64,000 nucleotides of DNA from Flavobacterium supellecticarium (GTDB taxonomy: Bacteria; Bacteroidota; Bacteroidia; Flavobacteriales; Flavobacteriaceae), in NCBI RefSeq assembly GCF_004801375.1, contig NZ_SSNZ01000005.1, forward strand, positions 62,001-126,000, written 5' to 3'. The translations under genes were made by a program, and so were the position numbers. Positions 1,471-4,483 of the stretch are shown here, one piece after another (position 1 is the first letter of the stretch; each line of letters starts with the position of its first letter). The notes beneath the pieces were generated by a model, which saw only the letters and a program-made list of their open reading frames with translations, made no database searches and was not told the origin of the DNA.

Positions 1471-2520
1471 ATGATAGAAGACAAAACACCTCAAAGAACC
1501 AGTTTGTCGCAACTGGGCGAATTTGGATTAATAAGTCATCTGACCCAAAATTTCAAAATCAATCAGCCATCCACATTAACAGGGATTGGCGACGATGCGG
1601 CCGTACTGGATTTTAAGGATAAAAAAGTGGTGATTTCAACCGATTTACTGGTAGAAGGTGTTCATTTTGACCTGGCCTATATGCCTTTAAAACATTTAGG
1701 TTATAAAGCCGTTGTGGTAAATCTTTCCGACATCTGTGCGATGAATGCCAAACCGACACAAATTACAGTGTCGATTGCCGTTTCGAACCGTTTTCCTTTG
1801 GAAGCACTGGAAGAATTGTATGACGGAATTGCACTGGCTTCCAAAATATATGATGTAGATGTGATTGGTGGTGATACCACTTCGTCTCAAAAAGGATTGA
1901 TTATAAGCATCACCGCTATTGGCGAGGCTAAGGAAGAAGAACTGGTTTACCGTAACGGTGCCAACGAAACCGATTTATTGGTAGTGACCGGTGATATCGG
2001 TGCCGCCTATATGGGATTACAGGTTTTAGAACGTGAAAAACAGGTTTTTCAGGTAAACCCGAATAACCAGCCCGATCTGGATGCGTATACGTATTTAATC
2101 GAGCGTCAGTTAAAACCCGAAGCCCGTAAGGATATTAAAGAGTTATTGGAGGCTTTGGATTTAAAACCGACTTCGATGATTGATGTTTCCGATGGGTTAT
2201 CATCTGAGATCATTCATCTTTGTAAGAATTCCTCAAAAGGCTGTAATTTATATGAAGACAAATTGCCTTTGGATCCACAATTGATCAATGCCTGTGAAGA
2301 ATTTAATGTCGATAGTACAACAATCGCGATTAATGGCGGTGAGGATTACGAATTATTGTTTACTATTAAAATGGACGATTACGACAAAATCAAAGCGAAT
2401 CCGAATTTTACGGTAATTGGCCATATGACACCGGAAAGCGATGGAATTCACCTGATTACCAGAGCAAACACCAAGATTCCATTAAAAGCGAGAGGATGGA
2501 ATGCTTTGAAAAATGAGTAG
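1471..2520 (+). CDS. thiL: thiamine-monophosphate kinase
   Basis: This 349-residue cytoplasmic enzyme phosphorylates thiamine monophosphate to thiamine diphosphate with ATP, the last step of cofactor synthesis. The N-terminal GIGDDAAVLD motif binds Mg-ATP. The VVNLSDICAMNAKP segment, DVIGGDTTS and the later IDVSDGLSSE motif are typical of ThiL in the AIR-synthase-like fold. Length is normal for bacteroidotal ThiL. It stands alone between an exported-protein gene and a structured intergenic region, with a strong hairpin terminator 35 bp after the stop. No thi operon partners are visible. No TPP riboswitch was recognised in the 90 bp upstream. Confidence 0.95.
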   Translation: MIEDKTPQRTSLSQLGEFGLISHLTQNFKINQPSTLTGIGDDAAVLDFKDKKVVISTDLLVEGVHFDLAYMPLKHLGYKAVVVNLSDICAMNAKPTQITVSIAVSNRFPLEALEELYDGIALASKIYDVDVIGGDTTSSQKGLIISITAIGEAKEEELVYRNGANETDLLVVTGDIGAAYMGLQVLEREKQVFQVNPNNQPDLDAYTYLIERQLKPEARKDIKELLEALDLKPTSMIDVSDGLSSEIIHLCKNSSKGCNLYEDKLPLDPQLINACEEFNVDSTTIAINGGEDYELLFTIKMDDYDKIKANPNFTVIGHMTPESDGIHLITRANTKIPLKARGWNALKNE

Positions 2521-2554: not shown

Positions 2555-2586
2555 AAGCGTTAGTACATTACTAACGCTTGATTTTT
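2555..2586. terminator. bidirectional intrinsic terminator after thiL
   Basis: A perfect 11-bp inverted repeat (2555-2565 and 2569-2579) has a 3-nt loop. A run of five T follows on the plus strand and of seven on the minus strand. It can end thiL transcription, and also any minus-strand transcript coming from the 2590-2900 region. Confidence 0.8.
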
Positions 2587-2612
2587 AATGAGCTAAACCA
2601 AATCCTCTATTT

Positions 2613-2648
2613 GGCTGGGCTGTAGCAAGACCTTTTACAGGCTGGGCT
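2613..2648. repeat. 9-bp direct repeat GGCTGGGCT, two copies
   Basis: Identical 9-mers lie at 2613-2621 and 2640-2648, offset by 27 bp. They flank a CTGTA/TACAG hairpin (2620-2640), so each copy abuts one side of the stem. They sit in the inverted-repeat-rich region between thiL and glyS. Confidence 0.6.
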
Positions 2649-2746
2649 AAAGAAGGTAATCCACTATATTTACCTTATACTGTATAAACTAACTTAATTA
2701 AGTATTTAATGACACTGTAAAAGTACTTGTTTCCCACACAAGCATT

Positions 2747-2896
2747 TTACGGTTTTTTTCAGTTTTTTTTACGGTTTGACTTTTTTTTGGCTTTTTTGTC
2801 CATTTTAACACTTTTAATGGCTTTCAAAACTCCTGTTTTGTCCCAAAAAGGCTACCCAAACCGTAATTTTAACCGTAAGTTAGTTCGCAACCGTAA
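2747..2896. repeat. five copies of AACCGTAA in mixed orientation
   Basis: The exact 8-mer occurs at 2859-2866, 2871-2878 and 2889-2896, and its complement at 2747-2754 and 2769-2776. The orientation (inverted on one side, direct on the other) lets the copies pair in a nested way. This could be an RNA fold or a set of protein-binding sites. Confidence 0.6.
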
Positions 2897-2898
2897 CG

Positions 2899-2930
2899 AA
2901 AAAAGCTTCCCGATTACGGAAAGCTTTTTC
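2899..2930 (-). terminator. intrinsic terminator of glyS
   Basis: On the minus strand just after the glyS stop, the arms at 2921-2930 and 2901-2910 form an AAGCTT-containing stem with one bulge and a loop of about 8 nt. A run of T follows, as expected for factor-independent termination. Confidence 0.7.
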
Positions 2931-2941
2931 GATATAGGGTA

Positions 2942-4483
2942 TTACATTTTCATTAACCAGTTGCGCATCGAAACTTCTTCACTAATAATTCCTCTTAATT
3001 CAGAAATTTTAACGCGATCTTGCTTCATGCTATCTCGATGACGGATCGTTACGGTTTGGTCTTCCAATGTCTGGTGATCAACCGTAATACAGAATGGTGT
3101 TCCCAAAGCATCCTGACGACGGTAACGACGCCCTACAGCATCTTTTTCGTCGTACGATACATTGAAATCCCATTTCAGATCGTCAATAATATTTCGGGCA
3201 ACTTCCGGTAAACCGTCTTTTTTAACCAATGGCAAAACGGCTGCTTTGGTTGGCGCCAACACCGACGGTAATTTTAATACCGTACGTGTCGATCCGTCTT
3301 CCAATGTTTCTTCCCGTAAGGCTTTGGAGAAAACCGCCAGGAACATACGATCCAATCCAACGGATGTTTCCACTACATACGGCACATAGCTGGAATTGGT
3401 TTCATTGTCAAAATATTGTAATTTCTTTCCGGAATGCGATTCGTGTGCTTTAAGGTCGAAATCGGTTCTGGAATGAATTCCTTCTAATTCTTTAAATCCG
3501 AATGGAAAATTAAATTCGATATCCGCAGCAGCATTGGCGTAATGCGCCAGTTTTTCATGGTCGTGGAAACGGTAATTCTCTTTTCCAAGTCCTAATGAAA
3601 GATGCCATTTCAATCGGGTTTCCTTCCAGTATTCGTAATATTTCATTTCTTCGCCCGGACGAACGAAAAACTGCATTTCCATTTGTTCAAATTCACGCAT
3701 ACGGAAAATAAACTGACGGGCTACAATTTCATTACGGAAAGCTTTTCCGGTTTGTGCAATACCAAAAGGTATTTTCATACGTCCCGTTTTCTGAACGTTC
3801 AGGAAGTTTACAAAAATTCCCTGAGCCGTCTCCGGTCGTAGGTATAAATCCATAGCCGAATCGGCGGATGCTCCTAATTTTGTTCCGAACATCAGGTTAA
3901 ACTGACGTACTTCTGTCCAGTTTTTGGATCCCGATTCCGGACAAGCGATTTCAAGCTCTTCGATCAGTGCTTTTACATCGGCCAGGTTTTCGGTTTCCAA
4001 CGAACGCGCCATACGCTCCAGGATTTCTCGCTGACGGGAACGGTATTCGATCACACGGGCATTTGTAGCTACAAACTGTGCTTCATCAAAAGCATCACCA
4101 AAACGTTCGCGTGCTTTATCGATTTCTTTTTGCGCTTTCTGATTTAATTTTTCGGCATAATCCTCAATTAAAACATCAGCACGATATCTTCTTTTGGAAT
4201 CTTTATTGTCAATTAACGGATCGTTAAACGCATCTACGTGGCCAGAAGCTTTCCAGGTCGTTGGGTGCATAAAAATAGCCGCGTCGATACCAACTATATT
4301 TTCGTGCATCTGAACCATGGATTTCCACCAGTATTCCCGTATATTTTTCTTTAATTCAACACCGTTCTGAGCATAGTCGTAAACTGCACTCAATCCATCA
4401 TAGATTTCGCTTGAAGGGAATATAAATCCGTATTCTTTAGCATGCGAAACTACATTTTTAAATAAGTCATCTTGTTTTGCCAT
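2942..4483 (-). CDS. glyS: glycine--tRNA ligase (class II, dimeric type)
   Basis: This 513-residue enzyme charges tRNA-Gly with glycine in the cytoplasm. It has the alpha2 (eukaryote/archaeon-like) architecture used by Bacteroidota rather than the alpha2beta2 type. Class II motifs are visible: the FRNEI motif 2 region, RPETAQGIFVNF and the motif 3 stretch around VETSVGLDRMFLAV. The C terminus holds the anticodon-binding domain with VTIRHRDSM. The start MAKQDD is followed by the conserved N-terminal stretch up to FPSSEIYDG. A TATTTTTG -7 element ends only 4 bp before the ATG, so the mRNA may be leaderless or nearly so. A terminator follows the stop. Confidence 0.96.
   Translation of the reverse strand: MAKQDDLFKNVVSHAKEYGFIFPSSEIYDGLSAVYDYAQNGVELKKNIREYWWKSMVQMHENIVGIDAAIFMHPTTWKASGHVDAFNDPLIDNKDSKRRYRADVLIEDYAEKLNQKAQKEIDKARERFGDAFDEAQFVATNARVIEYRSRQREILERMARSLETENLADVKALIEELEIACPESGSKNWTEVRQFNLMFGTKLGASADSAMDLYLRPETAQGIFVNFLNVQKTGRMKIPFGIAQTGKAFRNEIVARQFIFRMREFEQMEMQFFVRPGEEMKYYEYWKETRLKWHLSLGLGKENYRFHDHEKLAHYANAAADIEFNFPFGFKELEGIHSRTDFDLKAHESHSGKKLQYFDNETNSSYVPYVVETSVGLDRMFLAVFSKALREETLEDGSTRTVLKLPSVLAPTKAAVLPLVKKDGLPEVARNIIDDLKWDFNVSYDEKDAVGRRYRRQDALGTPFCITVDHQTLEDQTVTIRHRDSMKQDRVKISELRGIISEEVSMRNWLMKM

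Follow-up and report, generated by a model that had tools for sequence, protein, structure and literature searches.

A predicted regulator-controlled promoter with a tandem CCGTAA operator between thiL and glyS of Flavobacterium supellecticarium, and its counterparts in the genus

Introduction

Small RNAs that are switched on by response regulators of the NarL/FixJ type are familiar from the enterobacteria, where RcsB controls RprA and UvrY controls CsrB and CsrC. The system described here resembles these in that its regulator family, judged by sequence, finds its best match among solved structures in RcsB. It differs from them in belonging to another phylum and in possessing a Bacteroidota -7 box, a tandem 22-bp operator, and an unrelated RNA. 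A second comparison is offered by the csRNAs of streptococci (CiaRH) and LhrC of Listeria (LisRK), which are multi-copy small RNAs under OmpR-type regulators. Sibling small RNAs under a two-component system and C-rich unpaired stretches are common to these systems and to the one described here, but the Flavobacterium units adjoin the regulator gene and thiL, and the regulators of the csRNA and LhrC systems are of the OmpR type. The operator itself invites comparison with the LytTR-type tandem operators of AgrA, ComE, and PlnD; LytTR proteins recognize direct repeats that adjoin promoters and lie ~21-22 bp apart. Direct repeats ~22 bp apart next to a promoter are likewise present here, but relatives show palindromic sites, and there are loci that carry sites and no LytTR gene.

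A regulator-controlled small-RNA promoter is, as a kind of system, already known. To our knowledge, few regulator-operator pairs and few regulator-controlled small RNAs have been worked out in Bacteroidota. Among the titles and abstract openings searched, mostly from outside subscription journals, there was no earlier account of a CCGTAA operator or of the RNA family described below. Within the genus, the available portion of a study of F. psychrophilum describes the RNA Rfp18 as structured and conserved in the genus and gives the new Rfp RNAs a median length of 176 nt (PMC9723704). Rfp18 is, like the RNA predicted here, a small RNA of the genus; from that portion of the study it can be compared by description only (PMC9723704).

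Results

Repeats in the thiL-glyS gap

The window analyzed is a stretch of 64,000 nucleotides of F. supellecticarium, in which thiL and glyS converge on a gap of 421 bp (Table 1). An earlier note on this DNA had reported five copies of AACCGTAA in 150 bp of the gap, arranged as nested inverted repeats, and had judged them to be beyond what a simple spacer would give. The copies are present on the minus strand at 2747 and 2769 and on the plus strand at 2859, 2871, and 2889, as are the 10-bp pair 2769-2778/2857-2866 and the 8-bp pair 2747-2754/2871-2878, and the two hairpins at 2825-2840 and 2832-2851 can be read directly in the sequence. The judgement on chance also holds: the five copies in 2521-2941 compare with a shuffle mean of 0.057, and five or more were reached in 0 of 5,000 dinucleotide shuffles. 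Across the whole window, AACCGTAA occurs 12 times against 4.1 expected, and two of the other seven copies lie inside glyS. When the genome was searched for clusters of AACCGTAA, same-orientation pairs with no more than 25 bp between copies were confined to the thiL-glyS gap, with three placements in the 3.85-Mb genome and none for the reversed control.

Table 1. Coordinates of features in and around the thiL-glyS gap, and placement of the double box in relatives.
Feature	Position	Strand	Basis or remark
thiL	1471..2520	+	AIRS domain; name from the earlier note and from sequence
Intrinsic terminator-like hairpin	2555..2579	both, on paper (thiL and predicted RNA)	sequence
Predicted short transcript	2555..2713	-	start placed from the box at -12 to -5
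-7 box TACTTTTA	2718..2725	-	21 nt after the proximal CCGTAA; offset conserved in 45 sites
Tandem operator CCGTAA-N16-CCGTAA (two left AACCGTAA copies, 22 bp apart)	2747..2774	-	coordinates, recurrence
Right-hand AACCGTAA copy 1	2859..2866	+	half-site facing the other way
Right-hand AACCGTAA copy 2	2871..2878	+	half-site facing the other way
Right-hand AACCGTAA copy 3	2889..2896	+	half-site facing the other way
Inverted repeat after glyS, probable glyS terminator	2900..2929		loop with a sixth CCGTAA (TTACGG at 2914)
glyS	2942..4483	-	stop at 2942; class II tRNA synthetase core and anticodon-binding domain
Double box, distance from thiL end	L050 ~+272 and +619; L056 +266; L065 +177; L096 +176		window +254

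A probable composite promoter on the minus strand

The left pair of AACCGTAA copies repeats in tandem with a 22-bp period, and a minus-strand -7 box, TACTTTTA, stands at a fixed distance from it, a relationship that the earlier note had missed. This box agrees with the Bacteroidota -7 consensus TAnnTTTG at five of six positions. According to the portion of the F. psychrophilum study available, sigma-A promoters of that species carry TAnnTTTG at -12 to -5, and a TAnnTTGY variant also exists (PMC9723704). The start of the predicted transcript is placed near 2713 because TACTTTTA at 2725-2718 would occupy -12 to -5.

Five matches came from a search with the gap DNA in 60 relatives. Four of them, one each in G002 and G028 and two in G014, fall on the left pair, and the one in G004 covers another part of the gap. 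The motif was then searched in exact form as CCGTAA-N16-CCGTAA-N22-A-N3-T-K, which the window site fits with no mismatch. This composite gave 99 sites in 51 of 299 genomes of the genus, a figure that counts all matches and includes some that are clearly coding or chance (e.g., in G007, G201, G142, and G093), and the reversed control gave nine matches in nine genomes. Two of the sites belong to the genome under study, one in the window and one at C8:101983. Among 45 distinct sites, collected with at most one mismatch, A stands at +22 in 44, T at +26 in all 45, and T or G at +27 in 41. At least five of the six TAnnTTTG positions are found at offset 21 in 25 of the 45, whereas other offsets average 0.39 of 45. 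The 17 misses listed at offset 21 read TAnnTTGC (nine), AAAATTGC (four), GAAnTTGC (three), and TTATTTTA (one).

We conclude that the left pair is very probably part of a promoter with a tandem regulator operator. Of the explanations offered by the earlier note, a binding array is the one that this pattern favors, because the CCGTAA pair recurs with a -7 box at constant spacing, in the manner of a tandem operator, and close to the gene of a response regulator (see below). The fuller reading, of a regulator-controlled minus-strand promoter making an RNA of ~160 nt that ends near 2555, is probable.

The thiL locus and a small-RNA family in relatives

At 64 of 80 thiL loci in relatives, thiL is followed by the regulator gene, which lies on the minus strand; that gene was not found after thiL at the other 16, a few of which lie on short contigs. 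Most of the 64 thiL-regulator gaps are short and hold a terminator only. The exact double box is present in four of them, in every case firing toward thiL, and the window site has the same place and direction (Table 1). A further pattern, GGGAAACCGTAA or GGGAAAACCGTAA, is carried by 11 of the 64 gaps. In the gap of L050 (F. endophyticum), as in that of L056 (F. microcysteis), there are four promoter units with palindromic operators, TTACGG-GAAA-ACCGTAA and variants. Behind units 2 and 4 lie RNAs of 182-195 nt that end in a terminator, and behind unit 3 a 62-aa lipoprotein-like frame. The palindromic left half, TTACGG, is missing from the window operator, as it is from sites of the G014 type.

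The RNAs behind these promoters form a family with 13 members in six genomes (L050, L056, G278, G205, G279, and G150, with L056 and genome G134 being the same and counted once), often as two or three tandem copies behind the regulator. Their longest closed frames span 3-26 aa. Shared features are the -7 box TANNTTTACA, a core like AATACCACCCTTTTG followed by CCCC, a closing stem of varying sequence, and CCCC in the terminator loop; the C-rich stretches read CCACCCUUUUGCCCC and CCCCAA.

The closing stem covaries. Evaluated on nine of the 13 members, 94.2% of cells are paired and 8 of 19 pairs are changed on both sides, counts that lean toward the stem because the alignment register was set with the stem in view and four members with weaker stems or another register (L050u2, G278a, G205a, and G150a) were left out. 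The percentage paired and the covariation score were each reached by 0 of 500 shuffles, and the number of pairs changed on both sides by 2 of 500; structures slid by one to three columns pair at 31-67%. Further pair types in the stem did not beat the control (14 against 13.3, reached by 228 of 500 shuffles), and RNAalifold recovered the terminator only from an unguided alignment of all 13 members. Beyond the members themselves, the covariance model (R1) found a further copy in G205 (96 bits), a candidate in L062 (47.6 bits), and, weakly, L052 (42.1 bits), which is taken as weak because matches at 40.6 bits and below include plus-strand and terminator-like ones.

A separate set of short RNA candidates in the regulator-thiL gap has a G-rich stretch ahead of the terminator, which reads TTAGGGGG or, for L087 and L116, CAGGG(G). 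These occur in L065, L072, L077, L083, L086, L087, L096, and L116 and have the opposite base character to the C-rich family. Separately, contigs L042, L052, L071, L077, L085, L101, and L112, filed under Rhizobium, Bifidobacterium, Chitinophaga, Nitrotoga, Lentimicrobium, or Klebsiella MAGs, appear to be mis-binned, as their thiL is 83-85% identical in protein sequence to the Flavobacterium one of the window.

The RNA predicted for the window

The RNA predicted for the window shares its surroundings with this family. The intrinsic terminator before thiL is present, as in the family, and the start region TACTTTTACAGTGTCATT, for which the family form is TANTTTTACAGTGT, is identical to that of G150 at 17 of 18 nt and to unit 4 of L050/L056 at 15 of 18, a match that partly reflects the -7 consensus itself; three other family starts match it at 14, 14, and 12 of 18. 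Two GCCCAGCC stretches lie within the RNA, and their C-rich character, like that of the relatives' loops, is suggestive at most.

The body of the RNA is another matter. The covariance model of the relatives' RNA found no member in the window, where the gap fits the terminator only, at 15 bits, and the C-rich core, covarying closing stem, and C-rich terminator loop of the relatives do not appear in the window RNA. A sequence search of 56 genomes (55 others) gave no convincing homolog, the best other match having E 5e-4 over 38 nt, and Rfam gave no match in the window at gathering score. Folding modestly beats the shuffles when the terminator is included (z -2.05, 8 of 200), but this advantage vanishes once it is removed (z -0.08). 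The promoter thus belongs to the relatives' kind, and membership of the RNA in the family does not follow. No closed frame in the predicted RNA exceeds 11 aa. A small frame, GLPSLAQPVKGLATAQPNRGFGLAH, which has no canonical start, was tried as a peptide and rejected; in 299 genomes it had only two weak matches besides itself, and the one that was checked lies out of frame inside another gene.

We favor a small RNA as the most likely product of this promoter, with somewhat less assurance than we attach to the promoter itself. An alternative is that the promoter is real and makes no functional RNA here, being a relic of a regulator operon lost from the thiL-glyS gap. The regulator and its kinase are missing at this locus, the body of the RNA is not conserved, and apart from its terminator the RNA is not unusually folded, all of which would be expected of a relic. 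A relic would not, however, be expected to retain the operator, the 21-nt offset, the -7 box, the start region, and the terminator all intact, nor a box that matches the composite perfectly. We regard this alternative as unlikely, although it deserves to be taken seriously.

The associated regulator

The response regulator encoded beside thiL in relatives matches RcsB by profile across its receiver and DNA-binding parts, with RcsB as the best solved structure (E 6e-11). Its NCBIfam matches fall far under the cut-offs, and Pfam detects the receiver domain only. At least 35 of the 99 composite sites lie within 10 kb of a listed RcsB-like regulator gene, where ~0.5 would be expected; the list comprises matches down to E 1.4e-50 plus eight weaker ones taken only from site-bearing genomes, on which two of the 35 sites rest. 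At least 17 sites are within 1 kb of a listed regulator, and the sites near one come from at least 25 of the 51 genomes. The other 64 sites are not within 10 kb of any regulator among those listed. The usual neighbors of the regulator are an ~80-aa lipoprotein-like frame and a TPR-HisKA_3 kinase, joined in one clade by a LytTR regulator.

The association has its exceptions. In G234, a close regulator pair has no site within 20 kb, and 12 of 15 more distant regulator loci have no site. A de novo search of these 15 loci for other 22-bp repeats gave two matches, both of them the CCGTAA box. In the window's own genome, the regulator operon is absent between thiL and glyS; the nearest listed regulator is on contig C8 (82774-83433), is 47% identical to the G014 regulator, and has no site in the 20 kb around it. 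Adjoining this C8 operon, at 73.4-77.4 kb (L211 3398-7440), four frames share the start MRNLNGTPTATEEGVLAFGSLPLWFIGGNAGATQ and diverge behind it, with small genes between, and resemble orphan polymorphic-toxin cassettes.

The LytTR neighbor raises the alternative that the boxes are the operator of a LytTR-type regulator encoded beside the RcsB-like one, as found in one clade and on C8 of the window's own genome. The operator is a 22-bp direct repeat, and in G103, G245, and G269 the sites between the regulator and the LytTR gene fire into the latter; in these genomes there are also sites just after the regulator stop, and the -7 box of G269 is at 20 nt. An A-rich pattern, TTACGGTNTTTTNNNNTTTTTTTTACGG, is found with at most one mismatch in 22 of the 299 genomes (its reverse in none), and falls in 12 of the 14 genomes that have a close LytTR ortholog compared with 10 of 285 others (Fisher test), where the E-value cut-off defining an ortholog was picked after the ranking had been seen. 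Against this, 11 loci chosen for having both regulator and site contain a kinase in eight cases and a LytTR match in none, and the palindromic sites of relatives better suit an RcsB-type dimer. The LytTR idea was demoted because such loci with a regulator and a site and without LytTR had turned up, and we now consider it improbable. If a regulator acts here, it is very probably the RcsB-like one rather than LytTR.

Right-hand copies and folding of the gap

The three right-hand copies exceed chance expectation. They are spaced by 12 and 18, off the 22-bp register, and a -7 box was not seen 21 nt before the last copy. As a guess, they may serve as additional half-sites, either boosting occupancy or looping the DNA. 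If they are extra half-sites, the nested inverted arms become two half-site clusters that face each other. An inverted array of seven AACCGTAA copies at 9-bp spacing was observed beside a helicase-like gene at G036:C1:173166-173345 (L018 1501-1680), its inner inverted copies 90 bp apart from start to start, as in the window; these are perhaps replication iterons.

The earlier note had also proposed that the repeats form an RNA with alternative folds, and a related possibility is that they act as a DNA cruciform. The left and right copies are complementary. On the plus strand, the fold of 2741-2902 beats its shuffles (z -3.05, 0 of 200), and on the minus strand it does so less clearly (z -1.80, 10 of 200). 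No promoter was found that would transcribe 2741-2902, however, and convergent terminators flank it; the repeats fall outside the predicted transcript because they are upstream of the only promoter found. The left-right pairing is seen at none of the other CCGTAA sites among the 48 listed, and TTACGGT does not occur within 120 bp upstream of any of these others; no relative has the same pairing from which covariation could be read. A structured RNA or cruciform is very unlikely, though the plus-strand fold leaves a small probability for one. The note's third option, a repeat element, is borne out to the extent that operator units stand in tandem in two relatives, but they do so there as promoter units.

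Genes and islands behind CCGTAA sites

Protein genes begin within ~450 nt behind many CCGTAA sites. Behind the second site of the window's own genome, at C8:101983, the frames listed are of 34 and 28 aa. The CCGTAA promoters of L147 (G014:C20, 2402-12796) stand before genes for double-glycine leader peptides 56 and 69 aa long, and nearby are thioredoxin-like genes, a VKOR/thioredoxin protein, and a C39-peptidase ABC exporter; by sequence, this is a peptide-secretion island under the CCGTAA promoter type. The islands of L148, L149, L151, and L152 have CCGTAA promoters before successive genes, including RteC and GYF_2 proteins (Pfam), and some of their sites sit at contig ends. Other genes in these islands we take, from their sequence, to be TIR-, AbiEii-, or PIN-like. 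In G112 (L283, after 8979), degenerate repeats like TGTGGGCTTGACCAGAC / GGGGGTTTGACTGG follow a CCGTAA site with no obvious gene. The idea that the repeats are recombination sites marking the ends of mobile gene cassettes, in the manner of an integron, arose because several genomes have islands in which each of a row of genes has its own site, as well as sites close to contig ends. It is highly improbable and was dropped, as nearly all sites carry a -7 box at one offset, genes start downstream of them, lone sites occur outside islands, and the genes listed include no recombinase.

Discussion

The composite promoter recurs across the genus, is linked to a regulator gene, and in relatives stands before a covarying small RNA. 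For the window, we propose that an RcsB/NarL-like response regulator binds the two CCGTAA sites 22 bp apart, the nearer of which would lie roughly at the place of a -33 element, and that the bound regulator would bring RNA polymerase to the TACTTTTA -7 box. Transcription would then run from near 2713 to the hairpin at 2579-2555, yielding an RNA of ~160 nt without a notable reading frame, most likely a small regulatory RNA. In position, this RNA would correspond to the small-RNA genes found in some relatives in the stretch that separates thiL from the response-regulator gene. In this proposal, regulator binding, transcription at this locus, and an action of the window RNA like that of the relatives' RNA are inferred.

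More broadly, we tentatively suggest, with confidence falling a little short of even, that these loci represent an undescribed Flavobacterium regulon. In it, a TPR histidine kinase, a small lipoprotein-like peptide, and an RcsB-like regulator would control, via tandem CCGTAA operators just upstream of a -7 box, tandem C-rich small RNAs beside thiL as well as variable island genes, including double-glycine peptides with a C39 exporter, RteC, and TIR- and toxin-antitoxin-like genes. On this view, the regulator operon would have departed from the window's locus, leaving a single promoter of this type that makes a different RNA.

The composite motif makes this putative regulon readable from sequence, such that its targets can be listed in any Flavobacterium. 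Those targets include peptide-export and defence-like islands, for all of which a single regulator can be tested, and the system also offers a small-RNA family backed by covariation.
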